A stretch of 44,305 nucleotides of DNA from a virus. Numbering within the stretch: the stretch's first letter is position 1; each line of letters opens with the position of its first letter. Under the pieces are notes generated by a model that searched no databases, was not told where the DNA came from, and saw only the letters and a program-made list of their open reading frames with translations. The stretch is taken from the IMG/VR virus record IMGVR_UViG_3300039307_000027, positions 1 through 44,305 of that record; one strand, given 5' to 3'. Both the position numbers and the translations under genes were made by a program. Below are positions 8,827-37,193 of the stretch, in pieces.

Positions 8827-11118
8827 TCATTCTGCTTCCGTTGAATACGTTATTACTAAGTCACATACACAATTAGGATGATACGGTGGCCCATCGTCAC
8901 CCGTTGAAAACGTCTCGTCCAAATCAATCTCTCCATCGTCTGCGGCATCGTCGCATTCATCGTCGCCGTCGTGCATCGACCCGAGGATGCTGGCCTTCTT
9001 CATGCTGACGCCACTGCTCGCCGCGCCCAACAGGGCTCCTTGAATCTGCGCCTTTGCCAGCTCCGTCCGTGCAATCATCTCGGCGCGCGTTTCGCTGAAC
9101 TGAAACGAATCCGCAATCGAATCCTCCAGCGCCTGGGGCCCAAGTCCATCCTCAAATGCCCGAGTCACGGTGTCGCGCAGGGCGTCCCGTGTGGTGTCGG
9201 TGATAGCCCAGCGCGGATTCGGATTCTCGATCAGTGTGTCGCCGTCCCATTTCATGCCCACCATTTCCGCGGCACGGTCCCGAGCAAAATCCACGGCTGC
9301 CTGATTCACCTGATCGAACACTGCCTTGTCCGTCACGCCCACTTCCACCAGCACATCGCGCGCGACTTCCTGGGCTGTTTCCTCGATGGCCGACTGCGAG
9401 GAAGTGACGATCGCGTCCCATTCGAGCTCTATGGACCGCACGATGCGGTCGATCTCGTCCTCATCCGTCTTGGTGACTTCCGCATAGTGGTCTGCCACCT
9501 TGGCCGCAATCGACTTCCCTTGCTTCTTCAGGAAGCGTCCTAGTACCCCTGCCAGCCGGCCGATCCGCTTCTCAACCCGTGCGGGCAGCTTTCCCGTCGT
9601 TACCACAATCTTTTTTTTTTCGACTTTGGCCAGCTCGAGCGCAAACTTGTTGGCAACCTCCGCGGATTTGGCCCTAGATTCGCTCAAGGGCGGCTTTGCG
9701 GCAGGTGCCTTGGCTCCTGGTACGCCGCCGCTTGCTCCGTTCGCTGGCGGCAGCATAGGCTTCGGCGCGCCCGGTTTGACGCGCCCATCGCCACTCTTCA
9801 CGTCGTCCAGCATGATCGGGCCGGTTTGGGTCAGGATGAACGGCCCAATGCCCCACGGCTCCTCGCCGTCGCGGATGCGCAGTTCGTCCACGGAACTTTT
9901 CCCACAGCTTATGTAGATTTTGTCGACTTGCGCCTGCACCAGCGGATCAACTTCAACGTCATCATCGAAGGATGCCTCAATGTCAGGGAAGTTCAGGTAC
10001 TGCGGAGCCTGGATCAGGTAATTCAGCTTCTCCAGAATCCAGACTTTTGACGGCTCGAAACCTTCTTCGAGCGCCTGCCGTTGCTGCTGCTGGCCGCTGG
10101 CCCGGTTCATCATCTTGACGAATGCCGTAGGCGGCAGGGAGAAACAGAATGCTACGATACGCGCACGCCACTCCTCGAACTGATCGAGCAGCATATCTTT
10201 CTTGGCGAAGGTGATCTGCCCGGGCCCCTTCTCACCCAGTGACGGGATAAAACGGAGCATCCGCCGGGCAGCCAGATTGCCTTCCAGTGCTGCGTCGAAG
10301 GCGCGCTGGAACCGCTCGATCTGGTCCGGTGACCAATCGGGAGGCACCTGTGCGATAGCGTCAGGGATGGTACCTGAGGTGTACTCGGCCAACCGCGAAA
10401 CGTCGCGCCGCAGGCCCAAGTTGATCATGAAGATGATTTGCTCGACCGGGCTCATGCCGTAGACGCGATGCGTGCGCAGGTTGCGCGGCATGTAGACGAG
10501 CTGATTCGTGTTCAGATCGCAAAGGATCTGACCCTTAACGATTTGCTGGTAGGCGGTAAAAGGCGCTTTGGGTGTGGTGCCGTCCGGCCCGAGGCGGATG
10601 CCGATGGTGCCGCCGTCGGTGGGAACGAAGCGAGTCACCTTCTGGGTCTTTGAATCCCGTCCGACGAGCAAGCTGGCGCAATCCGCTACGAGTTGGTCTT
10701 CAAACCACAACCTCGTCCATTCGTGGAAATCGTGTTCGCCATCTGGCCGCTCGAAGAACTTGCGAACGTCATCCACGCCCGAGTCATTCTTACTGCGCTT
10801 CTTTACCTTTGAGTCGGGCTCGTCTGCATCCTCTTTCTTCAGTCCGAAGTGAACAACCATCTTCGATACCTGATCCTTCCGCGTCTCGATGCAGGTCCGT
10901 GTCAGATAGTCCGTGTCAGCCAGCATGCGCAACTGCTCGAAGGAGATTCCCTCGTAGCTCCGCGGCATGTACGAGATGTTGTAGCCGACTGGATAATCCA
11001 GCCGGCGCGGTTCGCCATCAGTGACCGTCGGCTTCAGCGGCGGCAGGGGCGACATGAAGACGTCATAGTCCGCCCGGGACATTGGCCGTGGAATAATGCT
11101 GGTCTTCGGAACGCTCAT
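8827..11118 (-). CDS. Portal protein fused to a gpF-like head morphogenesis domain
   Basis: This 763-aa protein combines two usually separate head proteins. Residues 1 to about 430 look like a portal: YDVFMSPLPPLKP, LRMLADTDYLTRTCIETRKDQ, then LVYMPRNLRTHRVYGMSPVE and FSLPPTAFVKMMNRASGQQQ. A Pro/Ala/Lys-rich linker (about 440-505) follows. Residues about 520-763 carry the Mu gpF / SPP1 gp7 signature (ARTELAKAQIQGAL, HDGDDECDDAADDGEIDL, YHPNCVCDL). The portal ring is the DNA entry and tail docking site. The gpF domain is a minor head protein thought to aid injection or assembly. A run of ten A (minus strand) in the linker could allow a truncated portal-only product. Start ATG 11118 has no strong ribosome site. 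Confidence 0.9.
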   Translation of the reverse strand: MSVPKTSIIPRPMSRADYDVFMSPLPPLKPTVTDGEPRRLDYPVGYNISYMPRSYEGISFEQLRMLADTDYLTRTCIETRKDQVSKMVVHFGLKKEDADEPDSKVKKRSKNDSGVDDVRKFFERPDGEHDFHEWTRLWFEDQLVADCASLLVGRDSKTQKVTRFVPTDGGTIGIRLGPDGTTPKAPFTAYQQIVKGQILCDLNTNQLVYMPRNLRTHRVYGMSPVEQIIFMINLGLRRDVSRLAEYTSGTIPDAIAQVPPDWSPDQIERFQRAFDAALEGNLAARRMLRFIPSLGEKGPGQITFAKKDMLLDQFEEWRARIVAFCFSLPPTAFVKMMNRASGQQQQRQALEEGFEPSKVWILEKLNYLIQAPQYLNFPDIEASFDDDVEVDPLVQAQVDKIYISCGKSSVDELRIRDGEEPWGIGPFILTQTGPIMLDDVKSGDGRVKPGAPKPMLPPANGASGGVPGAKAPAAKPPLSESRAKSAEVANKFALELAKVEKKKIVVTTGKLPARVEKRIGRLAGVLGRFLKKQGKSIAAKVADHYAEVTKTDEDEIDRIVRSIELEWDAIVTSSQSAIEETAQEVARDVLVEVGVTDKAVFDQVNQAAVDFARDRAAEMVGMKWDGDTLIENPNPRWAITDTTRDALRDTVTRAFEDGLGPQALEDSIADSFQFSETRAEMIARTELAKAQIQGALLGAASSGVSMKKASILGSMHDGDDECDDAADDGEIDLDETFSTGDDGPPYHPNCVCDLVITYSTEAE
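9611..9620 (-). other. A10 homopolymer in the portal/gpF linker
   Basis: The minus strand reads GAA AAA AAA AAG at codons 500-503 of the portal fusion. A -1 slip meets TGA about 12 codons later, and a +1 slip meets TAA within about four codons. Either event would yield a portal of about 505-515 aa without the gpF-like domain, which is close to free-standing portal size. Confidence 0.7.
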
Positions 11119-11304: not shown

Positions 11305-11541
11305 TCAACTCAGACCGAATGTGTCCTTCACGCCTTCAACGTACTTCTTCTCTTCCACCCGCGAGATGTAGCCGCGTGCGAAGGTCAACTCCGCTGCCGC
11401 TTTTTCGAGGGCTGCATGCTGGTCGGCCTGAATCACAACGTGACCGGCGGGAACGTGGTCCAATGTGCATCGCCCTTCCAGATCAACCCTGCCGATCAGA
11501 ACTCTCCAAGCGAAAGCGATTCGCGCCAGAATCGTTGACAC
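11305..11541 (-). CDS. Small hypothetical protein before the portal gene
   Basis: This 78-aa protein starts at GTG 11541 after AGGAGG. It has MSTILARIAFAWRVLIGR, a short hydrophobic/basic N-terminus, then an acidic helical part (HAALEKAAAELTFARGYI, VEEKKYVEGVKD). It could be peripherally membrane-associated. No family recognised. It lies between the exported-protein cassette and the portal gene. The following 186 bp (11119-11304) carry no gene but do contain two imperfect inverted repeats (AGGCCA/TGGCCT near 11148-11170 and GGCTGGG/CCCAGCC near 11260-11293). Confidence 0.6.
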   Translation of the reverse strand: MSTILARIAFAWRVLIGRVDLEGRCTLDHVPAGHVVIQADQHAALEKAAAELTFARGYISRVEEKKYVEGVKDTFGLS

Positions 11542-11558
11542 TTTTTCCTCCTATGGAG

Positions 11559-11951
11559 TTACTGAGCTGTTGCAACCGGAGACACCGCCGCTGCCGCTTG
11601 CGCTAAAAAAGTTGCGCTGGCCTCTGGGCTCGAGTTGGCATCAATCGCTCCAGGCGCGGTGCCCACGATCACGTAGAAATACTTCGTTCCGGCCGTGCCT
11701 GTGGTGTCGAGGTAATTGGTGACGGTGACTGCCGCGATCTGCGTGTAAGGCCCTCCGGTAACGGTCGAACGATCCACTTTCCACCCCGTAGCGGCGACCT
11801 GCCCCGCAGTTGGGGTGCCTGCTGTCCACGTCACGTTGACGCCATGCTGCACGGCCTGCGCCTTGACCACTTGGCGTTTGTTCGGCCAAAACAGCAGCAG
11901 TACCGGAATCAAAAAGAAAAGCCCGATTATTCCCATCCAACGGTGTTTCAC
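11559..11951 (-). CDS. Membrane-anchored or secreted Fn3-domain protein
   Basis: This 130-aa protein starts at GTG 11951 after AAGGAGA. An N-terminal hydrophobic segment (WMGIIGLFFLIPVLLLFW, residues 5-22) is followed by Lys/Arg and no clear cleavage site, so it is probably a signal anchor. Residues about 35-112 have the fibronectin type III pattern (VNVTWTAGTPTAG, GWKVDRSTVTGGPYTQIA, TNYLDTTGTAGTKYFYVIVG). The C-terminus is Ala-rich. It is the last of four consecutive genes with export signals lying between terminase and portal. Exposure on the outer face of the cytoplasmic membrane is expected. The function is unknown. Confidence 0.75.
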   Translation of the reverse strand: MKHRWMGIIGLFFLIPVLLLFWPNKRQVVKAQAVQHGVNVTWTAGTPTAGQVAATGWKVDRSTVTGGPYTQIAAVTVTNYLDTTGTAGTKYFYVIVGTAPGAIDANSSPEASATFLAQAAAAVSPVATAQ

Positions 11952-11962
11952 GTGATTCTCCT

Positions 11963-13609
11963 TTATTGTGCTTTTGCAAAGACCTGTGTGGCTGGCGCCG
12001 CGACTGGCGGGCCAGAAAGAGGAAGTTGCAACGCCCCCCGGTCAATCGTGCCGTTCGCACCAAATGTATTGCCGTTCATATCCACGTTGAAGTTGTGAAC
12101 GGCGGTCGTCACGTTGCCATCGTAGTAGGTAGAACTGCCAACATTGGAAATACTCACGCCGGGGTGGCTCAGGAACGGGTCGGGGGTAGTAAGTGCGAAA
12201 CCCGCAATTGTGGACGCGGTTTCATTCACAAACGGGTTTGCTCCCGCCCCGCTGACGATATAGCCGTGTGTGTTCGTATCGCTGTAGCAAGAAGAAGCCA
12301 CCCCCTGGTAGTATGCGTTGTAATCCCACGTGTAGGTCATCCCAGGTATGGAGTTCCAAAAGTAACCGCCGTTCCCCCAGCAACTAGGGTTTGTATTCGA
12401 CCCTCCAACCAAGAGATTGTCTTCATCGTAGGTAACGATGTTTCCGGTAATCGTGCCGTTCTGTCCGCTGTTATGTGGAGGGCCGGAAAGCTCCTGACTG
12501 TCGTACAGGATGCCATTCGTATATCCATCAAGCGTGTTGTGGACTACGTACAGAACACCGTTGTAGTTATCGCCCAGCATGTCCACAATGCCCCAGTTTT
12601 GAATCCCGATGCCATAGGAACCCAAGTTGAGCGCACGATATGCTGCATCCCAAAACGAGATGTTGCCGTAGAAATACCAATTCGTGATGGTAACGGTTCC
12701 AGCATCGGAATCGGCCAAATTCCCGTTGTAGTCGATGTCCTGAAATACATTGTAACGAACGGTCAGGTCAGAGAAAACGGCGGCGAATCCTTCATCGTGG
12801 CCACCGTTTTGGCCTGTGTGATTGTAGCTGATCCAGTTGTACTCGAACGTGGCCCAGTCGTTAAGGCCGTAGTTCATTTGAAACTGAGTGTTTCCCGTGT
12901 GGTGGGCATAAGAATGCCCAACGTAAAGATAACTACAGGTTCCAGAAGACGATGATTGTTGATAGATGGCATCGTCCTGCCAGATGCCGCAGTTGTCCGA
13001 CGAACATTTGTCAGCAGTAGAGTTGTTGTTGGGAAATCCGCTCCCCGTGCCCTCTATCTCCACGTATTGAGCCGTGAAGTGCGACGAATCGTAAAGATTG
13101 ATAGCTCCACAATCATTCGGACAGGACGTGTTGACGTTCCAGAATTTCAGCGTGTAGCAGGCCGTGTTGTTGCTGGGGTAGCTGCAGCCCGACACCGCTT
13201 GTCCATTGACCGTCCAGTAGTCTGTCGTGAACGATGTCTCGTTTGAGAATACGGCTTGCCCCGCAAAGCCACTGCTCCAATCACCTGCTGGGCCGTGGTT
13301 CGCGGCAGTCACACCCTCGATGAAGATGCGCGTTGTCCCGCTGTCGGACGTACTAAAGTTCGGCGCGGTATAGCTGCCCGTTCCTACCCAGTAAGTGACG
13401 CCCCGGGTAAGCGAAGCAGGGTTCACCTGAGTTCCGCCAGTCCCGAATCCCGTGTAGGCATTCGTCCAATTTGCTCCGCTGTGCGTTCCCGTTGCGCTGG
13501 CGAGCACGTAGCAGTTACCACTACCGTCGCAGCCTAAACCAAAAGCGGCAGGGGCAAACAATCCAAGCAGTGATGCAAAAAGAAAGAGTCTTTTCGACAT
13601 AGCGTTCAT
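11963..13609 (-). CDS. Secreted right-handed beta-helix protein (pectate-lyase-like fold)
   Basis: This 548-aa protein has an N-terminal Sec signal peptide (SKRLFLFASLLGLFAPAAFG, cleavage near AFG|LGC). Repeated short strands with Asn and aromatic ladders follow, typical of right-handed beta-helices (LKFWNVNTSCP, FTAQYVEIEGTGSGF, ATFEYNWISYNHTGQNGG, LTVRYNVFQDIDYNG, VLYVVHNTLDGYTNG, GTITGNIVTYDEDN). The many cysteines would suit an oxidising extracytoplasmic space. Beta-helices are common in polysaccharide-degrading or -binding proteins, but no catalytic residues can be assigned. ATG 13609 overlaps the upstream stop by 4 nt. The longer frame to 13714 only adds an Arg-rich out-of-frame reading of the neighbour. 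Confidence 0.75.
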   Translation of the reverse strand: MNAMSKRLFLFASLLGLFAPAAFGLGCDGSGNCYVLASATGTHSGANWTNAYTGFGTGGTQVNPASLTRGVTYWVGTGSYTAPNFSTSDSGTTRIFIEGVTAANHGPAGDWSSGFAGQAVFSNETSFTTDYWTVNGQAVSGCSYPSNNTACYTLKFWNVNTSCPNDCGAINLYDSSHFTAQYVEIEGTGSGFPNNNSTADKCSSDNCGIWQDDAIYQQSSSSGTCSYLYVGHSYAHHTGNTQFQMNYGLNDWATFEYNWISYNHTGQNGGHDEGFAAVFSDLTVRYNVFQDIDYNGNLADSDAGTVTITNWYFYGNISFWDAAYRALNLGSYGIGIQNWGIVDMLGDNYNGVLYVVHNTLDGYTNGILYDSQELSGPPHNSGQNGTITGNIVTYDEDNLLVGGSNTNPSCWGNGGYFWNSIPGMTYTWDYNAYYQGVASSCYSDTNTHGYIVSGAGANPFVNETASTIAGFALTTPDPFLSHPGVSISNVGSSTYYDGNVTTAVHNFNVDMNGNTFGANGTIDRGALQLPLSGPPVAAPATQVFAKAQ

Positions 13610-14931
13610 GGGCCGATGACTGCCTTTCCGCCGACGACGGCGTGCCCGCCGATCGCGCCCGTGCCGCTCACGGATGGCTGGTATGCGCCCTTCAAGGTCA
13701 TCAGAACTCCCCAATAGTGGTTCCCGGAATTGCCGTTCGTTGCCGTAGCTGTTGGCGAAGCCACCGTTGATTGTGTTGCGTAGAACTCATCGAACTGCAA
13801 CACGTCTCCAGTTCCTACTCCCCAATATCCCGACCCGGCAGTGAAAGGTTGGCCCGCGCCTCCCGCTTGATCACTGGCGAAATTGGCGGCGACCAGTTCG
13901 TAGGCATAGTTGGTATTTGACCCCGCTCCCGTGGTCATCGAAGGAGCCGAGGTTCCCCCGGCAGCGTGCGTGATGTCCGCAGCCGCCGTGTTATCCAATC
14001 CGTCGAACTCGAAGCAGTCGGTATATATGTCACTTGGCGAACTCGTGATTGTTGTCGTTACCGAAGACGATGCCGCTCCGTTCTTGGCATACCAGACATA
14101 CGAAGTGATAGTGCTGCCCGTGTGCGTCGGGCCATCAATCACGGTGTAGGAACTGCTCCCACTGTCTGCAAAAGACGTGAGTGTTCCAGCCTGGTCGAGC
14201 CACTGCGCACTGCAAATGATGGCGTGACCTGCCACCGTGTTATTGTCCCAATAAATCACGTTGGTATTGCCGCCGCCCGAAGCCCCCGCTTCTGTCTGGA
14301 TCAACTGAGGCTCGGCTTGAAAAGAAAGCGTCTCGGTGAAATTGACGTACGTATCGCCGGTTGCCGCTGTAGTCCGTCCACCGTAGTGCATCGTAGCCGT
14401 ATAACTAGCGGCCATCGACCCGCCGGCCGAATTGATGAACCACTTCACGACGATACGATCACCTATGGCAAACGTGGTACTCGTCGGTGAACCGGTCCAA
14501 TTATTCGCGGCGTTACCCGTGCCAAGCTCTGTCCCGAAAGAACTGTCAATCACCGTCGTGGATTCCGCTCCAGCGGTGTACTTGATGACCTGGACCTCGA
14601 ATCCGGCGTTCGCCAAAGCGTTATTCTCGTTCCCCCAACCGTTGAATGTAACCGTGCCCGAAATTGTGACGGCACTGGCGAGTGGAGGAGAAATCCAAGC
14701 AAGGTTTGCCCCACCAGAGGTAGCTGTAAGCTGCTTTGGGGGGCTGGCTGTCGTCTGCGTCACTGAAGCTACCGCCGCAGTGAAGTCCGCGTTGTTGTTT
14801 AGGTCCGATGCGTAGTAGGTGGCGAAAAGATTTGAGTTCAAGTTCGGATTGATCTTCATGTACAGCTTATTCGCCAACGCGCAGGGCGCGGCGTAGGCCA
14901 GCAGAATCAGAAGCGGTATCAGTTTTCTCAT
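13606..14931 (-). CDS. Secreted beta-sandwich surface protein
   Basis: This 441-aa protein has a signal peptide ([21 protein letters not shown]). Two beta-rich modules follow: one at about 20-205 ([50 protein letters not shown]) and one at about 210-420 ([63 protein letters not shown]). The second resembles jelly-roll domains in environmental surface and phage-associated proteins. The C-terminus is Gly-rich ([18 protein letters not shown]). Start and stop overlap both neighbours by 4 nt. A role as an adhesin or sugar binder is inference. Confidence 0.7.
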
Positions 14932-17900
14932 TGTAGTGTGCAGCTCCCGCCGCGGCGGATATTCAAAGTTGAAGTGGTGCTGCTGAGTGCGGCTGCGTCG
15001 ATGATGAGAGTGCTGCCAGCCACAGCAGCTCCTTCAATCGTGCCCCAAATTTCGGCTTGATAATTCGTTGTGGTTGCACCGCCGGCCGTGCCAGTGCCGA
15101 CGTTCTGATGCCCGGTCGTGGTGTTTGAGATATAGCCGGTAACAGTGGCTCCAGCAGCAGAAGTTTGCACGGCAGTGGAGACGGTTAGCTGCGTTGGTGC
15201 GGCTGAAAGATTGACGCCGAACTGAGGGCCAGTGACAGTGGTATTTGTGCTCTCCCACAACATGCTGCAATTGAATCTATAGGTCTTGGCGGATGCAGTT
15301 GCTGGAAGCGCCCAGCTAAAAACTGTAGAGGCTGTATTCGTGGAATTGGTGTAGTCCGCGCCGGTAATGCTCTTTGTTCCCAGCGTCGATTGGATGATTC
15401 CGGCGGCCAGAACAGCACCAGTCTTGTCCACACTGAACTGTGACGCGCTCGCATTCTGCAGATCCATGAGCATAGATCCCGTGCCCGCGGTGCCCGTGGT
15501 TGTGTTCACAAAGATTACGCCAGTCACTACGCCTGTGGTATTCCAAGTAGGCAGAAGGCAAAGGGTGCAAAGCGTCTGCGATCCGTTCAGCGAGTTATCG
15601 ACCTTGAGCGGGCTGGCGGTTGAGCCGACGAGCGTCTTGATTTCCGCTTCGTACTGCGCACCAGCGCCGTTCGTCGCCGCTGTAGTTTCGCCAATGGTTA
15701 GCCCAACCTGCGAAGCCGTCGTCTGGTTGTTGTTGAAGAAAATGGGGAAGTTCCCGTTCGCATAAGTCGTCGAAGCTGCAGCCGCAGAGAGAAGGTCAAG
15801 CGTTGGCGATGCCCAGCTTGCCGTGCCGCCGGAAGTTTCCTGCAGGAACTTTGTGCCGGAAGTGTTGCCTGCGAACTTCGCCCAGGTTGTGCCATCGCCC
15901 TTGAGTAAGTCTCCTGCAGCCGCTGAAGTGAGAATTGATTCCGTCATCACGCTGGAAGCGTTCGTATAGAGCGGGATGCCTGTGGCCGCTGCTCCGGGGA
16001 GTAAAATCTCGTATGCCGTAACCCCTGCTGGACATTCCAGCGTTGCGGTATTCGCCGTGGCGTGCCCATTGGCCGAGCCTTGCGTACATTGGAAGTAGCC
16101 AGCCGTCGTGCCCACGGTCGTCACGTTTCCAGCTTTATCAACCTTGAATACTGGCGTTCCGCCGATGGCCAAATCCATCAGCAGCGAACCTGTGCCCGAC
16201 GCCGTATTCGTCACATTGACGTGCACTGCGGCATCTGCCACGCCGGTTGTGTTCCACGTTCCCGTGATATTCAGGAAGTCGGTTACGTTTGCACCGGCCA
16301 CCGTGCCACCGGCGATGATTGCCTTACCAGAAGCGCCGGCCGTACCCGTGGCGCCCGCAGATCCCAAGTTCACGATGAAGTCGCCGCCCTTGCCAGTTGT
16401 GCTGCCCACTGCGGCTGTCCCGCCGTTGCTGGTCGTAAGGGTGATGTCTCCGCCGGCCCCGCCCGTGCCTGAGGTTGCACCTGCGTTCGACCCGACGCCT
16501 GTCGTAAAGGTGAACCCGCCACCCTTTTTACCAGGGTTTGTTGCTCCGCCGTTTGCCCCGCCAGCACCACCCGCTGCGCTGATTGCTAAGGGCGCATCAG
16601 CGGCAGAGGCAGCAGTGGCTTGCGTGAGACTCAAAGGAATGAGGGTCGAGCCCGAGATCGTGGTCAGGTTCAAGAGATTCGCTGTGCCTGCCGATGTCGC
16701 AGCCGTTGCCTCGGTAATGGTAAATACCGACTGAGCAGAACTTGTGGCAGCCGAATTAATCACGAACGGATTGTTACCTAGAGCAATTGCCGTGATTGCG
16801 CCCGTAGGTGTGACAACCTGGTTCAGTGGGATGTTCGGAAGGTCGCCGACGGCGATCGCACGGTATGCAGGGGCACCCGCCGTTGCTGTGGCAAACAATG
16901 CATGAGTCGTGGTCGTGTCAGTCGAGGCCGTGACAACCGCTGTGCCGGTCAGTGCTGGTAGGGTAATCGTAAAAGCGGACGCAGCAGATGCGGGCGTCAG
17001 GCTGACGCTGCCCGTCGCCGTCACAGAAGCGATCTTCAGAATGCCCGTCGTCGTGCCAGCCACGCCAATCGTCAGTGTGGGAGAAGAATATGTCAGGTTG
17101 ACAGACGTGCTCGGCGCGGCACCAGTGCCACCGCCAATCATTACTCCACCGGATGCCAGAAGGGCGGTCGAAGACTCCGCAGATGTGCTCGAATACCAGG
17201 GGATGCCGCCTTGCGTGAAGCCCGCAGATGCCGGGAAGGTGTTCCCATTCACGCTCGTGGCGTTGATCGTGCCCGTGCCGATGGCAGCCAACGTCCCCGC
17301 GCTCGACATCTGCACCCCGTTCGCAGTGCCTTGCGCGGTGATTTGGAATGGATGAATTGAAGAAGTTCCAACAGAATGAACTTCTAGCAGCGCGCCCGTG
17401 CCCGTGTTTCCCGTCGCGTCAATCAGCGAGAACAGGTTGTTCGTGCTAGTGTTGCCCGAATAAGTGAACTGGGTATTGTCGCCTACCGGCATCGTGATTG
17501 CCAAGGATGCCGTTGGTGCCGTCAAGGCAGACCACACAGACGAACCACCGGAGATCGAATTGCAGCCCAGCGCATGAGTCGTGGTGTTATACGTCAGCGC
17601 GCTCGTTCCAGTAGAACAGCTCGGCAGTGCTACCGCTGTCGGTGCCGCAGCGCTCCCCGTCGCATTCAGCAGGACCGTGTCCGCAGCCTGCGTCGAAAGG
17701 TTCGTCAGCGCAATGCTGGCTACGATGCTCTCTGTGACCACGCCCGAACTGTTCGTCCAGTAGGGGAAGCCTGTCGCTGCAGCACCTGGCAGAACAATCT
17801 CAAAAGCCGTGACCGCTGCCGGGCACTCGAATGTGATTGTATTCGCGGTTGCATGACCGTTCGCGGTTCCCTGCGTGCATTGGAAATAGCCGGCGGTTGA

Positions 17901-20882
17901 ACCATTCGCCGTGAACGCTGGCCCAACGAATCCGCTTGTCGCTGTCGTTGTGACCGTCGTCCCATTGTCCGTGATCGTGGAATTATTCGGCGCGCCTCCT
18001 GCACCACCGCCGCGGACTAGCACGTTCGTATTCAGAATTGCCGAAGAGCTTTCCTGTACTGTTGAGTTGAAGTACGGAATGCCACCCGACGTGACCGTCC
18101 CACTGACCGTCAAAGGCAGAGCAGTCGAGCCGCCAGTGATGGAGTTGCAACCGAACAACCCGGTCGCTGTGGTGAACGTCAATGCGCTGGACCCCGTCGA
18201 GCAACTGGGGAAGGATTGCAGGGTCGGCATGATCGGGAAAAACGTGTTGGTGTTGTCGGTGTATTGGAAGCCGAAAGCATACTGCGGCAGCTTGCCGAAT
18301 CCTGTCTGCGAACCCGATGCCGGGGTATAAATCACGGTCCCAGCGCCAATGTTGAACACGCTGAACACGATGTTTCCAGCTAGCGTTGGACCCGTCATGG
18401 TTGTGGCTGACCCGTTGCTCGTGGTCAGCAGTTCTGCGTTCATCGCTGACGTGACGGTATCGGACGTGCCCACGAATGCGTTGACGGGAACACCTGGGAT
18501 CGTGCAGGTTGGGGCCACAGCAACGCCACCCACGACGTTGTAGCCGCACACGTAGTTCCCGTTTGCCGTTGGAGGCGTCAGGCTGCCCACTGTGGTCGAA
18601 CCGGTGTAGTACGCCATCCCGTAAGTAGTGCCGCTGGATAGCGTGCCCGAAGGAGCGGACCATGTGCCATCACCACGCCAGAACGTACTCGAGCTGGCGC
18701 CGGTGCCACCACTCAAGTTGTTGATGGACAGATTCCCGGTGACCTGCGTGGCCAGATTCAGTGTGCCGCTGATATTCGAGAAGCCTGGCTGCGCGCACCC
18801 AGGAGCTGTGTTGCGCGTGAGTGCGTTCACCCATTGATTTGCCGAGCAGGAACCCACGCCCGAATACGCGCTGCCCAGTCCGGCATCGGTCAAGGTGCCC
18901 GATATGGCGAACTGTACATTGCCCACACTCGGATTCGACGCATTGATTGTAATGCCCGTAACAGTCGCACCGTTCTGGAAGTTGATCGTGGACTGATTCG
19001 AGGTGTTGGTGCCATTGACCTGAATTGTCGCTCCACCACTCGAAGTCGTTCCGCAAGAGAACGCATGCGTCGTGGTGCTGTAATTCAGATGGTTTCCGGC
19101 TGAGTCCAGGCAGGAAGGAATTGTGGCCCATTGGCCGGTAGCCGCGGCGGTTGTATTCAGGAGCTGATCGGCTGCTGAGTTCGTGGGGACCGTAGTGCCA
19201 TTGACGCGGATTGCGGTCAAAGTCAGCGACCCGGCCGAGTTCGTGACGTCTCCCGTGTGGGCAGGCTCTTGACCGGCCTGCAGCGTGCCAGAGACGTCGG
19301 TTCCCAACGCCACAGCGCCAAAGGAAGGCAGCCCAGAGGCATTGCCATGCAGGACTGTTATTGTGGTGCCCAGGGAGGCCAGAACCTTCAAATCTGAGCC
19401 ACCGTTGCCCACGACCACGGCATTCAGCGTCAGATTGCCTGCGGAGTTCGTAACCGTGCCCGCACCTGAAGGTGTACCCCAGGTTCCATCGCCTCGCCAG
19501 TAAGTCGAAGACGACGCGCCAGAGCCCCCGTTCAGGTTGGCAACAGGCAGGTTTCCGGTCACTTCCGAGGCTAGATTGACCTGAGCCCAGATATTCGTGC
19601 CATGCAGGACTTGGCCGCTGGTGCCTGTGGCAAGGCGTGCGAGGATCCCACCGCTGACCGTCCACAGGTCGCCATTCGTGGTCAGAGGTGTGGCCGACAG
19701 AGGAAGCGTGCCAAGAAGGTTTGAATACGACGGCTGCGCCTGGCTGAAGACGCCTGTGGCTGAATTGTAGGCCGTGATGAACTGATTTGCGACGGCTGGG
19801 GTGTTCGCGGGCGCAGTGGGCGTGCCGGAAACCTGCGAGTATGCGATCGTGACGTAAGCCTGCGCGCCGTTCAGGAAGGTATTCGCGTTTGCCGTGCCCC
19901 CACCGAGTTGTGCCGCTGGTACTAGCCCGCTGCTGTTCAGGCCGGCGTAGCCGCTGACTGCGCCCTTGTGACTCGTCACTTCGCAAGTAGGGCATGCCAG
20001 GGTCGCACTCCCACCCGATCCGCTAAAGCTCAAGGGCGAACTAAACGTCGCGGTAATCAGGTCAAGAGAATAATCCCCACTCGTCGCAGTGATCGCACCA
20101 GTGCGTCCAAATACGGATGACACCGCGCCACCGCCCCCGCTAGTCGGCATGCAACTCGCGCCGGCCGAGTTGATGCAGCCAATTAGGCCGCTTCCAGAAT
20201 CGAAATAGACTCGGCCAAAGCCCGCCGCAGGGTTTGCTGGTGCGACTTGTTGCCCAATGTCGAAGTAGTGCGTGCCAAGATTGTTGTTGGCACTTAGGTC
20301 AAAAGCGTTTGTGACCTGTGCGGCAGTGTAGTCGCCACCGACAGCCGCAACGTCACCTGTGCGCCCAAACACTGAACTGACTGCACCGCTGCCACCAGAT
20401 CCCGCTGCGCATTGCCAGCCGCTTGATGTCCATTTCGTAAAGTAGTTGTTGGGGCAGCCGGGGGGCGGCAACAACTGGGCCATCGGCACCATCACGCCCG
20501 GCGCTGTCGGCCACAACACGCGCACACCGCTGAGATGAATCGTAGTGCCGCTCAGCGGTACGACCCAGTTTTCGTGAAAGCGGGCGGTCGAAGTCGCATA
20601 ATCCACGCTGTAACTGGTGCCAAAAGGCGATGCGCCGATGTTCGGCACAAGCTGCACGCTGAACGAGCCGGTCGCATCGAGTGTGATGTAGGTTTTTTGC
20701 CCAATCAGAACGGTATAGCCATCCAACGACGTAAAAGTTTGATTCGTCGTGATGGTCATCTGGCCGACGACAGTGCCGTTCTGTGGCGGGATGAGCTGGT
20801 CGGCAATTGTCGTGCGAACCTGCGCGGAGACTGGCAAGGCAGCGAGCAAAAGAAATGCGAGGATGATCAGTCTGTTCTTCAC
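14928..20882 (-). CDS. Giant exported fibre/adhesin-like repeat protein (1984 aa)
   Basis: This is the longest gene in the window. It starts at GTG 20882, 4-nt coupled to terminase and preceded by GAGGAAG. Residues 1-20 are a clear Sec signal peptide ([20 protein letters not shown]). A compact beta domain (about 21-145) and a Gly/Ser linker follow, then two copies of a tail-fibre-type motif ([14 protein letters not shown] at 167; [14 protein letters not shown] at 253). Fibre-like repeats come next ([16 protein letters not shown] and [16 protein letters not shown]), two diverged copies of a roughly 57-aa block (AGYFQCTQG to TES) and a long Gly/Ala/Thr/Ser-rich passage. A C-terminal beta-sandwich ends RRGGSCTLQ. 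The repeats say fibre and the signal says export, two facts not usually combined. Whether it is virion-associated or placed on the host surface is undecided. Confidence 0.8.
15934..16104 (-). repeat. Internal duplication in the giant fibre-like gene, C-proximal copy
   Basis: This encodes [19 protein letters not shown] and the following [14 protein letters not shown] block. It matches 17725-17895 at a constant offset of 1791 bases, with diverged third positions, so the duplication is old and the protein sequence has been kept. Confidence 0.75.
17725..17895 (-). repeat. Internal duplication in the giant fibre-like gene, N-proximal copy
   Basis: This encodes [19 protein letters not shown] and the following [14 protein letters not shown] block, the counterpart of 15934-16104. 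Confidence 0.75.
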
Positions 20883-22399
20883 GCTTCCTCGTCTTTCCGC
20901 GCCAACTTCTCGTAGTAATCCAACATGCCCATCCTGTGTCGCATCATCTTGAGCGCCTGACTCGCAGCATCGCCGCGGTCATTGGGCTTCATCGGGAATC
21001 GCGTGATCTCTCGGATATGGTCCATCACCGGGAAGGGCGCAATCCCTGGCGCAGGAAACTCAACATTGCCCGCCTGATATTCGGTACTGACCGCGAACAT
21101 GCGCGCAGTCTTGTCACCGTCAGGCTGCACGTCGATCAGACCGTCCACAGTCGCTTTCAATTCTTGAATAATGGCGGGACCATTCGCTTTGTTCTCAACG
21201 TATTTGGCATGCGCGAATGGCGGGCGGGAAGAGAAACTCTTCAGCGCTTGCTTTGTCTCTACGAAATCCATGCGTCGTCGTTCTTCATCAAGTAAGAGTT
21301 TTCGAGCACCAATACGTCCCCACTTCTGCCCAACAACAAAACTCGCCTCATCGCTTTTGCTTCCAAAAGACATATCCCAGGACTGGATAACTTCGTCGAA
21401 CCCGTCGGGGACGACGTTGTAGAAGTGCTGGCACCACTCTTCCTTGATGATGGCTCCGCCTTTGGGGCTTGGTCGCTGCTGATACTGCCCGTGGTAGTTC
21501 GGGACATCGCGCCTAAGCGACGCAACCACAGATTCAGGAAAGCGAGCAGGCCACAGCAAATCACCAGCGGCACGGCGATAAACACGACCAGAAATAGGAA
21601 AAGTCCACTCTTCAGCATCCTCGGCCTCCATCGGCAGCGAGATGACTGTCCATTCCCCGGGATTCATTTCCGTCAAATGCCCCGTGAGATCCGCGATGTC
21701 CAGGCGCTGCATGATGATGACGAACGCGCCCGTTGCCTGGTCCGATAGCCGCGTGCGCAGCGTATCGTCGAAGAAGAGATTTGAGCTTTTCAGTTCCACC
21801 TCTGAGGCTGCCTGCTTCGGATTCAGCGGATCGTCCACAATCACGTCGTGACTGCCTTTGCCCGTAGCCGTGCCGCCTGTCGAAGTAGCTGTCATGCGTC
21901 CGCCCACCGCGTTCTCGATTTGGTCCTGACGTTCCTGTGTCAGAGCTACTTGATCGGGGAACATTCGCTGGAACCATTCCGAACTGACCAGCTTCGAGCG
22001 TTCGATGTTGAAGCCTTCGGACAGCTCGCCAGAATATGAGCTGGACAGAAAGCGCCGCGTAGGAATCTGACTCCATGACCAGGTGGGATAGAAGACGTTC
22101 ACAAGCCGCGACTTGCCCGTCTGTGGTGGCACATTGATTATTAAGCGGCGAAGAACGCGATCCTTGACCAATGTGAGATATTCGCAAATCAACTCCAAAT
22201 GCCAGTTCCACTTTAATTCCGTGCCGGGCTCAAGTAGTGGCCAGGCTTGCTGACAAAAAGACGCTAGATCCCTAAGACTTTCTTTTTCCTTTAGAAATTG
22301 CTCCAGTTCCAGCAGTCGCATCGCCTCGACCTGTTGTTCTGGCGGCAGGCGATTGATAGCCTCCAGCGGCGAGCAACTCGGCAAGACGCCGTTGGACAT
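20879..22399 (-). CDS. terL: Terminase large subunit
   Basis: This is the packaging motor ATPase and headful/cos nuclease. With ATG 22399 the product is 506 aa, the usual size. The ATPase half shows Walker A PPQTGKS (about 91-97) and Walker B DVIVDDP (about 185-191). The RNase-H-like nuclease half shows candidate acidic residues in QSWDMSF (D342), VENKANG (E402) and NDRGDAASQ (D477). The frame is open to 22603, but the extra Ser/Lys-rich N-terminus is the small-subunit gene read in another frame. ATG 22399 lacks a clear ribosome site and ATG 22321 is an alternative. The stop overlaps the GTG of the giant exported protein. Confidence 0.9.
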
Positions 22400-22706
22400 C
22401 GGGGAGCGCGAGGTTGATATTTCCGCCTTCTGGTCCGCTGTGCTCGATTCGCACAGTGGCTTTTCCTTCGATTCGATTGACGAGCTCTTGGAAGGCCTGG
22501 ATGTCGCCTGCGAGGACTTTCTCGAAAAGAGCCTCGACCGCAAGACGGGCGAACGTTTTGCCTGTTTTTGGATCAGTGGCTTCCGCAAGTTCTCGTCCGA
22601 CATCAGTGAACGGCGCCTTCTTCGGCCTACCGCCCGGATTGCCGCTTACTCCCTTTGGCCAGTGGTACTTTCGCAGCCACTCGCGTTTTCTCTTGGTGTT
22701 TCCCAT
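22272..22706 (-). CDS. terS: Terminase small subunit-like protein (DUF5681 type)
   Basis: This 144-aa protein begins with basic residues and the signature WPKGVSGNPGGRPK (16-29), which defines DUF5681 proteins commonly encoded next to the large terminase. Helical segments follow ([47 protein letters not shown]). It overlaps the large-subunit frame by about 128 nt if that starts at 22399. Recognition of phage DNA and loading of the motor is the expected role. The family link is known, while the role here is inferred from position. Confidence 0.75.
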   Translation of the reverse strand: MGNTKRKREWLRKYHWPKGVSGNPGGRPKKAPFTDVGRELAEATDPKTGKTFARLAVEALFEKVLAGDIQAFQELVNRIEGKATVRIEHSGPEGGNINLALPDVQRRLAELLAAGGYQSPAARTTGRGDATAGTGAISKGKRKS

Positions 22707-30688: not shown

Positions 30689-30979
30689 TCACCTCAAAAG
30701 CAAAATGCCCCATGCACACAGGCTCGCCAGAATCGCCACGACGATGCCCCAGGACCAGGAGATTCCCGGCTTCACTTGCAGCGGCCGGGACTTCCGAGGG
30801 GCAGTGGAAGCCCCGGTCTGTTGCTGCATCAGGGAAGGCGGGTGGATTTGGACAAGAGGAGCGCTCGTCCAGTCTTCCCCGAAAGTTTGCACCACGGTCA
30901 TGTTCGGGCCGCAGTGGATCTCCATCATGGCGTTCTCACTGACGTAAACATCGAAGCTGTTGTTAGTGTCCACGATCAT
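30689..30979 (-). CDS. Tail-anchored membrane protein
   Basis: This 96-aa protein starts at ATG 30979, 4-nt coupled to the Imm5-like gene. The soluble N-terminal part (MIVDTNNSFDVYVSENAMME, MTVVQTFGEDWTSAPLVQI) is followed by a basic stretch and one C-terminal hydrophobic helix (WGIVVAILASLCAWGILLL). The pairing with an immunity-type gene may be functional, but nothing else supports a role. Confidence 0.6.
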   Translation of the reverse strand: MIVDTNNSFDVYVSENAMMEIHCGPNMTVVQTFGEDWTSAPLVQIHPPSLMQQQTGASTAPRKSRPLQVKPGISWSWGIVVAILASLCAWGILLLR

Positions 30980-31575
30980 TTTGAAGCTCCGATGCTCGCA
31001 GGAATCTTCAATTGCTTCCTGCAAATGTCAGCGGATTCGCGGAGCCGTGCGGCGTAGGCGGCGTCGGCGGCGTCGGCGTCGGCGGCGTCGGCGGCGTAGG
31101 CGGCGTAGGCGGCGGCGCAGGCGGCGGCGCAGGCAGCGGCGTAGGCGGCGGCGCAGGCAGCGGCGTAGGCGGCGGCGTAGGCGGCGGCGTAGGCAGCGGC
31201 GTAGGCGGCGGCGTAGGCGGCGTCGGCGGCGTAGGCGGCGCAGGCGGCGGCGGCGGCGCTCCGCACATCCTCAATCGTACCTTCCCCTTTAGCCCATTTC
31301 CGCGCCGCTTCGATGGCCAGTCGTGGCCGTTTGTCGTCCGGGTACTTATCCTCAAACGACTTCAGCGACAATTCCGCGCAATCACAGCACGCCAGGACAA
31401 TTTGTTGTCGCGTCGGCCAGTCTTTCTTTCCTTGCATCTTTCCGCACAGCCACAGCATCCAGTCTCCGCGTTCGCAGGCTTTCCACGCGGCGCGCAGCGT
31501 TTTGTAATTCTTCGCCCAAACAACTGATTCTTTGCAGGCTCCAATCGCTTTCAGACTTCTCGTTAATGTGGCCAT
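30976..31575 (-). CDS. Imm5-like putative immunity protein with Ala/Tyr repeats
   Basis: This 199-aa protein starts at ATG 31575 after GGAGGG. Residues about 15-110 match the family annotated as putative immunity protein (VWAKNYKTLRAAWKACERGD, then CAELSLKSFEDKYPDDKRP, RLAIEAARKWAKGEGTIEDV). A long Ala-rich helix made of AAYAAAYA/AACAAAYA units follows, then LRESADICRKQLKIP. Imm5-type proteins were first linked to polymorphic toxin systems, and phage copies are known but unexplained. The coding DNA is a GC-rich microsatellite (31050-31259), so length can vary by slippage in multiples of codons. Confidence 0.7.
   Translation of the reverse strand: MATLTRSLKAIGACKESVVWAKNYKTLRAAWKACERGDWMLWLCGKMQGKKDWPTRQQIVLACCDCAELSLKSFEDKYPDDKRPRLAIEAARKWAKGEGTIEDVRSAAAAACAAYAADAAYAAAYAAAYAAAYAAAYAAACAAAYAAACAAACAAAYAAYAADAADADAADAAYAARLRESADICRKQLKIPASIGASK
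31050..31259. repeat. GC-rich microsatellite in the Imm5-like gene
   Basis: About 210 bp are built from GGCGGCGTA, GGCGGCGCA and GGCGTC triplet blocks, encoding (AAYA)n and (AACA)n on the minus strand. Repeat number is expected to vary between genomes and can confound assembly. Confidence 0.85.
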
Positions 31576-31850
31576 GCTTCCCTCCGTTTCGGCCCATAGG
31601 ACCAGCCCCGCGGCATTGCTATCACTTTTGCCTGGCGCGCTTGTAAGACGCGGGCAAGATTGAGGAGCGATGTGGACCCGCAGACCTGACAGGTGGAATG
31701 CTTTGACGGCGTGATGTACTCGCAGTTCGCGCACAGCACAGACTCTTTGATCGGAATGGAAACGACGGTGCGGCCGGCTGGGGCGTGGTGCTGAATGTGA
31801 AGCCAAACGCTTATCGCGATCAGAATCAATCCAAGAATCAGACCATCCAT
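31563..31850 (-). CDS. Membrane-anchored zinc-ribbon protein
   Basis: This 95-aa protein has an N-terminal helix (GLILGLILIAISVWLHI, residues 3-19), then a linker and a four-cysteine ribbon (LCANCEYITPSKHSTCQVCG). A basic C-terminus follows. It overlaps the Imm5-like gene start by 13 nt. Topology suggests that the ribbon is near the membrane. The 102 bp upstream contain only a 7-bp hairpin (31926-31947) without a T-run. Confidence 0.6.
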   Translation of the reverse strand: MDGLILGLILIAISVWLHIQHHAPAGRTVVSIPIKESVLCANCEYITPSKHSTCQVCGSTSLLNLARVLQARQAKVIAMPRGWSYGPKRREAWPH

Positions 31851-33257: not shown

Positions 33258-34394
33258 TCAAAAGGGAATATCTTCGTCACCGGCTTTGAAGTCTTCTGGC
33301 TCATCCATCTGTACGCTCTTGAACCTCCGCATAACCTCGTCATAGAGGGTGGGCGGGATCTCCGCGCTCGACCTGATGCCCCACTTGTTCATCAGAATGT
33401 TTTTGACCTGCTCCGTGCCCCAGCCAGTCTCGACGCAAACGCCATAGAAGGCGCGACGCTGTTCGGAGGAAATGAACTGGACTGCTGGCTGTTGTATGCC
33501 TGCCGGAATTGTAGTGGTCACATATTCGGACCTGCGCGTTGGTTGCTGCACGGCCGGCACCGCGGCAATCTCGCTCTCGGGGTAAAACTCCTGGGCCACA
33601 TCCGGCGCGCGTTCGGTTTCCGGCTCGTTCTCTGCTACCAACTCCACCTTGCGGCCACTCCCCAGTAGCTTTTTGGTCTGCTCAAACAACTTAGCGTGCT
33701 CCGTCATCGTGGAAACCAGGCGGTTCATGTCTTGGGCGGAGAGTTCGATGTTCAGGGCGTAGATTGTCGTGGAAACTTTCTTGCCCTTGGCCGTGTCCAT
33801 GTATGCGGCCTTTTCCGGGCGCACGACCAATTTGCAGCGAATGCCTGCAAGCCTGCCGCCGGTCACGGTGCGGATCTGTTCCAGCGCGGAGTGGATCTGG
33901 CGGATGGAGCGGTAGGAAGTCGTGTGCAGCCGGCAGAGCGCGCCCAGGCGGGGAAATTCGGCCAGAACGAAGTAGAGGTCGCCGGAAGGCTTGCAGGTAC
34001 CTGCTTCGAGGTCTTTGCAAGCATCGCCACAGGGCGTCCAATCTTCGCCATCTGGTGCCCTCTCTGTGCGGCGGGTGGCTTCTCTGCCATCGCCCCAGCA
34101 CTTTTTCTCCGTCCTGCTCCACCAAGCGTACTCAGTGCGGAAGACATTCTCGATTTCGTCGTCAAGCAGGATGATCCAGAACTCACGGCATTCGTGGCCG
34201 TAGTGCTTCACCAGTTCCTGGTCGAGTTCCCATTCCAGCTTTGTGCTTTTGCGCAGGAAAATGAAGTGGTCCAGCTTGTTCGGCCTGGTGCCATTCGCCG
34301 TGCTGACCACTTCGCCGATCGCCACTTTCGTCGTCACAGCCAGGCGCTGAATCGCCTCGCCTGATTCACTGACCGTCAATCCGATGATTGCCAT
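33258..34394 (-). CDS. Metal-binding early protein, recombination-directionality-factor-like
   Basis: This 378-aa protein belongs to a widespread phage group often labelled hydrolase or metal-binding. It has LDHFIFLRKSTKLEWELD, then FRTEYAWWSRTEKKCWGDG, CGDACKDLEAGTCKPSG (four cysteines) and CRLHTTSYRSIRQIHSAL. Cysteines in the sequence C..CG..C...C suggest a zinc site. Distant likeness to phiC31 gp3-type directionality factors exists in the layout, but no integrase is present, so another DNA-processing role with the neighbouring nuclease is more likely. GGAGGGG precedes ATG 34394. The C-terminal third (VQFISSEQRRAFYGVCVETGW) is a separate helical domain. Confidence 0.65.
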   Translation of the reverse strand: MAIIGLTVSESGEAIQRLAVTTKVAIGEVVSTANGTRPNKLDHFIFLRKSTKLEWELDQELVKHYGHECREFWIILLDDEIENVFRTEYAWWSRTEKKCWGDGREATRRTERAPDGEDWTPCGDACKDLEAGTCKPSGDLYFVLAEFPRLGALCRLHTTSYRSIRQIHSALEQIRTVTGGRLAGIRCKLVVRPEKAAYMDTAKGKKVSTTIYALNIELSAQDMNRLVSTMTEHAKLFEQTKKLLGSGRKVELVAENEPETERAPDVAQEFYPESEIAAVPAVQQPTRRSEYVTTTIPAGIQQPAVQFISSEQRRAFYGVCVETGWGTEQVKNILMNKWGIRSSAEIPPTLYDEVMRRFKSVQMDEPEDFKAGDEDIPF

Positions 34395-34410
34395 GCGCCC
34401 CTCCTGAAAA

Positions 34411-34878
34411 TCACCACCCCCCGTTTTTCTTGCTGTATGCGATCGCCACGGCGTTGTCCGCAGGCCCGTACCACTGTAAAAGCCGCTCAATCTTGTGGTG
34501 GTTGTGCCTGTGTGCCCAATATGACGCGAGCCACAGGGCGCCGTCCTGCGCGGCCATCATCACCACGGCCGGACCACACTTCTGCGTTGGCAGAAAATCC
34601 TCGTGTCCTCTGTGCCCCAGATTGTTGCAGGTCTGCGCAGCGTCAAAGGTCAGCAGCGTGGCCGTTGTTGCCAGCGCAATCTTTGTGTGCTTATCCCAAT
34701 ACCGCGTTTGCACAACTCGCTTCGGTTCTGGCGAGATCGGAAGATCGTTAGTCAACGCTGGGATTGGAAGAAGCAACGCGAGTGCTACTACGCATATTAC
34801 TACTACGTAAGATGTACTATTGGATTCTATTTTAATTACTGGTAACTTCGCGGCGTCCCGAAAGGAAAATATGGACAT
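34411..34878 (-). CDS. Membrane or secreted protein at the head of the early operon
   Basis: This 155-aa protein has a hydrophobic segment (VVVICVVALALLLPIPAL, about 29-46), usable as a signal peptide or anchor. A hydrophilic part follows with CNNLGHRGHEDFLPTQKCGP, a second mildly hydrophobic stretch (VVMMAAQDGALWLASYW) and a His-rich HRHNHHK. The start is uncertain. ATG 34878 overlaps the divergent plus-strand gene by 8 bp, and a weaker downstream start is possible. Unknown function. Export would place it on the cell surface early in infection. Confidence 0.55.
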   Translation of the reverse strand: MSIFSFRDAAKLPVIKIESNSTSYVVVICVVALALLLPIPALTNDLPISPEPKRVVQTRYWDKHTKIALATTATLLTFDAAQTCNNLGHRGHEDFLPTQKCGPAVVMMAAQDGALWLASYWAHRHNHHKIERLLQWYGPADNAVAIAYSKKNGGW

Positions 34879-36482: not shown

Positions 36483-37193
36483 TCAGAAGTGGAATGTCGG
36501 CCCAAACTTCACGATGAGCCCGTTGTTTTGATAGCCGGGGAACTTCGCCCACTCGACACTTCCGCCAAGCGTCCACGATCCGCTTTGGGTCAGCATGTAG
36601 TTGGCACCCCCGCCAGCCGTGAAGGCGTAGTGGTTTTTAGTGACGCCCGCCAGAGTCACTTGATCGACGCCAGCGCCCGCGGTAACGAAGGTCTGAACTC
36701 GAAGAAAATTCACGTTCGGGCTGATGCTATCGAGCTTCTTGTTCAGCCATGCAACCCGATAATTCACCCCGCCAGAGAAGACCTTCAGCACCCCGTCCGT
36801 ACTGATTAAGTTGCGATCGTAGATGTCGAGGTTGGGCGTCGGTGTGAATGCCAATCCGCTATCATTGGCCGCGATCGTCTGATGGTTGCCAGGCAGCGAC
36901 AGAACATTCGTATTCAAAGACCAGGGCTGAGAAACGGGAGCTGCCGGAGTCTGCGCCATTGCCACACCAGAAATGAGCAGGCAGAGGATGACTACTTTGG
37001 CGATGTAGGCCACCTTGGCCGGAGTGCCATCGGGATTGTAGTAGTGGTTGTAGAGTGCGAGACCTAATTGGGAAAAGCCAAGAGTGAACGCCACCAGGGG
37101 CTGATATTTCGCGGGAATGATCCCACCGAACAGGTTGACGGCCTGACCGATGAGAAGCAGGAACTGATAAAGCAAATGCATGAACACTGTCAT
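36483..37193 (-). CDS. Holin-like membrane segment fused to a signal peptide and outer-membrane beta-barrel-like domain
   Basis: This 236-aa protein has two unlike halves. Residues 1-60 form holin-like helices (HLLYQFLLLIGQAVNLFGG, QPLVAFTLGFSQLGLALY, then NPDGTPAK). Residues 61-80 look like a second, complete Sec signal peptide ending in an AxA site (AKVVILCLLISGVAMA|Q). Residues about 90-236 alternate as amphipathic strands (VNYRVAWLNKK, NFLRVQTFVTAGAG, YAFTAGGGANYML, WTLGGSVEWAKF, GLIVKFGPTFHF) and end in phenylalanine, the usual outer-membrane barrel signal. An internal GTG (37013) could give a barrel-only product. It follows the endolysin gene, so a lysis or outer-membrane role is possible. 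Outer-membrane location is inference. Confidence 0.6.
   Translation of the reverse strand: MTVFMHLLYQFLLLIGQAVNLFGGIIPAKYQPLVAFTLGFSQLGLALYNHYYNPDGTPAKVAYIAKVVILCLLISGVAMAQTPAAPVSQPWSLNTNVLSLPGNHQTIAANDSGLAFTPTPNLDIYDRNLISTDGVLKVFSGGVNYRVAWLNKKLDSISPNVNFLRVQTFVTAGAGVDQVTLAGVTKNHYAFTAGGGANYMLTQSGSWTLGGSVEWAKFPGYQNNGLIVKFGPTFHF

Follow-up and report, generated by a model that had tools for sequence, protein, structure and literature searches.

As a rule, tailed phages produce their fibres and put them together in the cytoplasm, and we know of no two-compartment fibre assembly described for tailed phages. Among the systems closest to the locus reported here, PblA and PblB of Streptococcus mitis phage SM1 are released by the phage holin and lysin (PMC7600539). 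For Porphyromonas gingivalis phages, part of the published account describes genes with general-secretion signals, several of them exposing an N-terminal Gln, and attributes signal-peptide calls on capsid proteins to cleavage by the prohead protease (PMC10367356). The neck fibre of Anabaena phage A-1(L), formed by gp80-gp82 (PDB 8KEG), is a multi-gene fibre that self-assembles before docking (PMC10966104). Finally, Tunturi 1 and 2 infect Tunturiibacter, and the main text of that report makes no mention of signal peptides on their proteins (PMC11924767). Across the literature that we searched, we found neither exported fibre cassettes in packaging operons nor matching signal peptides on tail fibres.

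Results

The window (the whole stretch of DNA analysed, 44,305 bp) is one IMG/VR record of a soil phage. An exact 92-bp terminal repeat is common to its two ends, and the relatives L027 and L028 span the end-to-end join, so the genome is complete (closed), which allows its gene content to be assessed. Besides the features in Table 1, it encodes a putative protease, a phrog_13692 protein in the capsid position, a putative tape measure, a DUF2460 protein, a baseplate hub protein (PF09931), a J-like hub (PF13550) and an M15-type endolysin. Lysis-type genes follow the hub, with no recognisable fibre gene there, and no fibre gene besides the cassette was recognised anywhere in the closed 44-kb genome. 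Because the DUF5681 ORF overlaps the 5´ end of the TerL ORF, the true TerL start may be further in.

We also noted an ORF at 30976-31806 that matches Imm5_like (Imm-5 like putative immunity protein, PF21805, E 4e-10), an unusual phage cargo, and a recombination directionality factor-like protein (PF18897) at 33258-34490, with no integrase recognised among the genes searched. Near the endolysin, a 236-aa protein (36483-37193) has two hydrophobic stretches followed by a signal-like segment ending AMAQ, then a barrel-like C-terminal part, and gave no family match.

Table 1. Coordinates of the cassette, its members and its borders in the window
Feature	Position	Strand	Description
Portal-MuF fusion	8827..11118	-	phrog_2662 E 9e-78; PF04860; downstream cassette border
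78-aa ORF between Fn3 and portal	11305..11541	-	No signal peptide; conserved in relatives
130-aa Fn3-like protein	11559..11951	-	N-terminal signal or anchor (predicted); weak Hoc-like PHROG match, E 0.018
548-aa beta-helix-type protein	11963..13609	-	Predicted signal peptide; fold as read in the original prediction, no Pfam match
441-aa beta-sandwich-type protein	13606..14931	-	Predicted signal peptide; C-terminal half aligns with proteins of L002 (283 aa) and L004 (238 aa)
1984-aa fibre-like protein	14928..20882	-	Predicted Sec signal peptide, first mature domain, trunk repeats, C-terminal domain common to L002
Fibre first mature domain, residues 22-140 (about)	20463..20819	-	Used as profile A4/A5
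Fibre signal peptide	20820..20882	-	Predicted cut before Q; kept in L002 and L003
TerL	20879..22603	-	phrog_38 E 8e-76, Terminase_6C; longest ORF
DUF5681 ORF	22272-22706		Overlaps TerL 5´ end

As the original prediction had it, four consecutive minus-strand genes lie between TerL and the portal, in the order and at the coordinates that it gave. Three of the junctions are 4-nt overlaps (TerL/fibre GTGA, fibre/441-aa ATGA and 441-aa/beta-helix ATGA), and the beta-helix/Fn3 junction is an 11-nt gap containing AAAGGAG. For the beta-helix gene, the start was corrected to the ATG at 13609 (548 aa), which overlaps the preceding stop, from the longest-ORF TTG at 13714. That the overlaps start at the TerL stop supports the proposal that the cassette is made together with the packaging genes. 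Neither promoters nor terminators were found above chance within the cassette and, because the overlaps couple it to TerL and it has no promoter of its own above chance, its expression is expected to be late. The cassette proteins gave no significant match in Pfam, PHROG and PDB sequence searches.

The signal-peptide calls come from our own strict heuristic, not from SignalP, and require a basic n-region, a hydrophobic core and a small-x-small cleavage motif. All four cassette N-termini were called as a Sec signal peptide or anchor, again as predicted. By these N-terminal features the fibre, the 441-aa protein, the beta-helix protein and the Fn3 protein fall among Sec/signal peptidase I substrates, with cleavage less clear for Fn3. 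The heuristic reads the Fn3 N-terminus as VKHRWMGIIGLFFLIPVLLLFWPNKRQVVKA^Q and, given the long charged c-region, this protein may be anchored rather than cleaved. Among control ORFs of at least 300 aa taken from the neighbourhood of this portal family in genomes from outside the Acidobacteriota, 14/316 were positive, several of them probably host genes. The corresponding count for the cassettes of the window and L002 was 5/5 (Fisher p 4e-7), and this base rate leads us to reject chance hydrophobic N-termini. The remaining structural genes of the window were negative, save for a weak internal hydrophobic match in the hub. We do not claim a Bacteroidetes-type Q rule as a host adaptation: Gln followed the cut in 3/29 cases compared to 6/33 controls, in a test that used 400 kb of one Acidobacteriota genome and a crude cleavage caller.

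Redirection of a fibre to the host surface was also among the options of the original prediction. In a diderm host, a Sec signal by itself takes a protein as far as the periplasm, and the mature cassette proteins showed no second membrane segment, no Pfam domain and, by inspection, no lipobox that would place them among surface-anchored proteins such as lipoproteins, outer-membrane barrels or autotransporters. With Sec alone leading to the periplasm and no anchor or secretion domain recognised, surface display is not supported.

Related phages revealed extensive turnover within the cassette. The same TerL-SP-SP-SP-SP-portal order is present in L002 (TerL 91%), where TerL is followed by a 2047-aa fibre, proteins of 283, 648 and 120 aa, and the portal. 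Signal peptides were called on 4/4 of these products, and the last three differ from those of the window; the 283-aa protein is possibly distantly related to the 441-aa protein, for which no relatives were found in IMG/VR. DNA homology between the window and L002 ends within the fibre at 17730 (short repeat matches aside) and restarts at 11553, just past Fn3. The Fn3 protein, replaced in L002, is conserved beside the portal in L022, L023 and L026-L028. For these phages homology with the window begins at ~12010, in the last codons of the gene preceding Fn3, which encodes a different protein with a PATxxFAKAQ tail similar to that of the window beta-helix protein. The breakpoints in the two comparisons thus indicate that members are swapped while the export signal is kept, and their position inside the cassette is that of modular exchange as in the tail fibre/receptor-binding class. 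Retention of hydrophobic N-termini is not a universal rule, since in the more distant L004 (TerL 66%) the beta-sandwich homologue has no signal peptide. L004 also encodes a 139-aa protein with a signal peptide and an 809-aa protein whose signal peptide, called from a TTG start, is doubtful at best. TerL and portal directly or almost directly adjoin each other across most of the portal family, which marks the cassette site as an insertion point for extra genes.

Several other observations concern this region. The contigs of L023, L026, L027 and L028 all start within a few bases of one place, ~1.48 kb before the portal and inside the variable cassette, a pattern that hypervariability of the cassette within the population would produce. 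A small protein family between TerL and portal, compared by eye, has a signal peptide in some phages only (L120 2999-3490 and L128 8456-9691 versus L038, L092 and L154). An intein-like insertion of ~270 aa, absent from the window, is found near the portal-MuF C-terminus in several peat relatives (L025 261-3371 and L026-L028).

The cysteine content of the mature proteins was also examined. Cys makes up 1.61% of mature cassette-type proteins compared to 0.73% of fibre-like proteins without a signal peptide (p 2.6e-12), and the number of Cys is even in 17/19 of the former and 11/24 of the latter (p 0.004), p-values that overstate the case because the sets were hand-picked and are not phylogenetically independent. 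The fibre trunk repeats contain 12 close Cys pairs and, when the window and L002 fibres are compared, there are five places where two closely spaced Cys are present in one fibre and missing from the other. This paired gain and loss, the strongest of the cysteine observations, is as disulfides in an oxidising compartment would predict and is independent of the signal-peptide call. The fibre N-domain is under strong purifying selection (dN/dS 0.02-0.05), and the fibre signal peptide gave a dN/dS of 0.10-0.16 over few sites. Collectively, the cassette proteins are very probably exported, with added support from L002, where different members again carry signal peptides, and from the cysteines.

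A profile of the first mature domain, from which the signal peptide was left out, matched 35/396 Acidobacteriota genomes. A broader profile matched 38/396, with 0/398 Pseudomonadota and 0/199 Planctomycetota genomes. According to the heuristic, a signal peptide directly precedes the domain in 27/30 matches. Because of this distribution, the host of the window phage is probably an acidobacterium. Most of the matching genes lie in a conserved chromosomal phage-like cluster containing an XRE regulator, a capsid-like protein, a head-tail adaptor, the signal-peptide fibre (SP-fibre), TerL, a HipA-like kinase, DUF3037 and a portal. The cluster TerL is found in 36/396 Acidobacteriota genomes (about 9% of sampled species), with one match each, and in 35/36 of these genomes the fibre domain is upstream of it on the same contig and strand. 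The cluster, seen in L219-L234 and L265-L268, may be a domesticated phage of some kind, such as a gene transfer agent. In L234 and L221, a second protein with a signal-like N-terminus lies beside the SP-fibre.

Comparable blocks are present in other phages. In Tunturi 1 and 2 (PP887698, PP885685), gp12, gp13, gp14, gp16 and gp17 start with signal peptides by the heuristic, and the depositors' annotations for several genes of the block read tail fibre, tail spike, pectin lyase or virion structural protein. Residues 921-980 of the window fibre share 62% identity with Tunturi 1 gp13 (E 1.5e-14) and, together with the trunk motifs, this 60-aa match bears out the earlier reading of tail-fibre-type repeats in the giant member. 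No signal peptide was detected on the Tunturi 3-5 fibres that we examined, so signal peptides on fibres are not universal in Acidobacteriota phages. The viral contig L162 has four consecutive signal-peptide genes (154, 338, 306 and 514 aa) at 50538-54616, directly before the portal. It also has three fibre-like genes without signal peptides after the hub, which suggests that in this phage the putatively exported set supplements ordinary tail fibres. Related exported fibres gave pectate-lyase, beta-helix or weak GDSL-type matches.

For the fibre N-domain, tblastn against cultured phages gave no match, and the AlphaFold model (pLDDT 52) had no Foldseek match at E 0.001. A weak profile match to gp82N of the A-1(L) neck fibre (E 0.057 with A5) was absent with the deeper profile A9; the link to a neck-fibre domain, weak and lost as sequences were added, is not one to rely on.

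Discussion

The explanation that we consider best, and in which we place moderate confidence, is that the cassette is a late, translationally coupled block of Sec-exported fibre or adhesin proteins freed at lysis. We prefer late, exported, disulfide-folded fibres because a Sec signal leads to the periplasm and no anchor or outer-membrane route was recognised. After crossing the inner membrane via Sec, the proteins would be processed by signal peptidase I and acquire disulfides as they fold in the periplasm, separated from the cytoplasmic assembly of virions; lysis, or else a secretion route of the host, would then free them. Their adhesive folds could attach to debris, to extracellular matrix or to polysaccharide on the host surface, and some of the proteins, the long fibre in particular, may become part of particles already released. 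What makes such joining after lysis appealing is that no other fibre gene is recognised in the window. The domain types in relatives suggest glycan binding and, by the same analogy, the proteins may act as secreted hydrolases. Superinfection blocking, aggregation and virion capture, all raised in the original prediction, are guesses.

Other readings assign the proteins to the particle or to the host. One possibility, which we think unlikely, is that they are genuine virion fibres made by way of the periplasm, where they would form disulfides before being attached to tails, necks or heads once lysis has brought the compartments together. Such fibres would fit with the trunk motifs common to Tunturi 1 gp13, the closed 44-kb genome in which no other fibre gene is recognised, a swapping of members typical of receptor-binding proteins, and the almost constant placement of the SP-fibre next to TerL in the chromosomal phage-like cluster. 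However, L162 carries conventional fibre genes as well as its four-gene signal-peptide block, the neck-fibre match of the N-domain is not significant and the structure model is poor. We suggest only tentatively that Acidobacteriota phages and a chromosomal phage-like element use two-compartment assembly, with Sec-exported fibres that would acquire disulfides in the periplasm and be fitted only after lysis.

Signal peptides, the pectate-lyase and GDSL-type domains of related exported fibres, and similar proteins in conserved chromosomal clusters would also be expected of proteins for the host instead of the particle, namely accessory (moron-type) adhesins or hydrolases that alter the envelope, attachment or superinfection immunity. 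We regard this as improbable, given that no anchor was found to hold the proteins at the surface and that a block coupled to TerL, with no promoter of its own above chance, is expected to be expressed late, near host lysis. Even more doubtful is that the hydrophobic N-termini are virion features, either propeptides cut by a head protease or hydrophobic docking segments, despite the precedent of the P. gingivalis phage capsid signal calls put to the prohead protease in the part of that account cited above (PMC10367356). A basic n-region, hydrophobic core and small-x-small motif recur here in unrelated proteins, the same architecture is seen in chromosomal proteins, and the capsid and protease of the window have no such N-termini. 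The disulfide-like Cys pairing also argues against virion features, and head-protease propeptides are rejected by it.

A recurring set of fibre-like genes that are export-tagged, coupled to packaging and exchanged in the manner of receptor-binding proteins suggests one of two things: that assembly has a second compartment, or that phages secrete a class of adhesins and hydrolases with a role away from the virion. Tunturi 1 or 2 on Tunturiibacter is a cultured phage-host pair that makes the question directly testable. For annotation, structure-based "tail fibre" calls may conceal exported proteins.

The nearest functional parallel is with PblA/PblB, phage tail proteins that can also be on the host cell surface as adhesins (PMC7600539), a likeness drawn from function; they differ from the cassette in being released by holin and lysin, not by signal-peptide export, and in having a Gram-positive host. 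The signal-peptide proteins of P. gingivalis phages are not assigned a function, nor is a TerL-portal fibre cassette described, in the part of the report considered here (PMC10367356). No signal peptide is mentioned for the A-1(L) neck fibre (PMC10966104), unlike the cassette fibre. Tunturi 1 and 2 resemble the window in that gp12-gp17 are consecutive late genes, most of them overlapping, for fibre, spike and pectin-lyase-like proteins, but these phages are podoviruses and the block comes after a tail gene, not TerL. In the Acidobacteriota chromosomal cluster, which has a single chromosomal copy, the fibre is before TerL and the HipA-like kinase and DUF3037 lie between TerL and portal, in contrast to the window; as in the window, an SP-fibre with the same first mature domain adjoins TerL, and the portal is of the same broad family.
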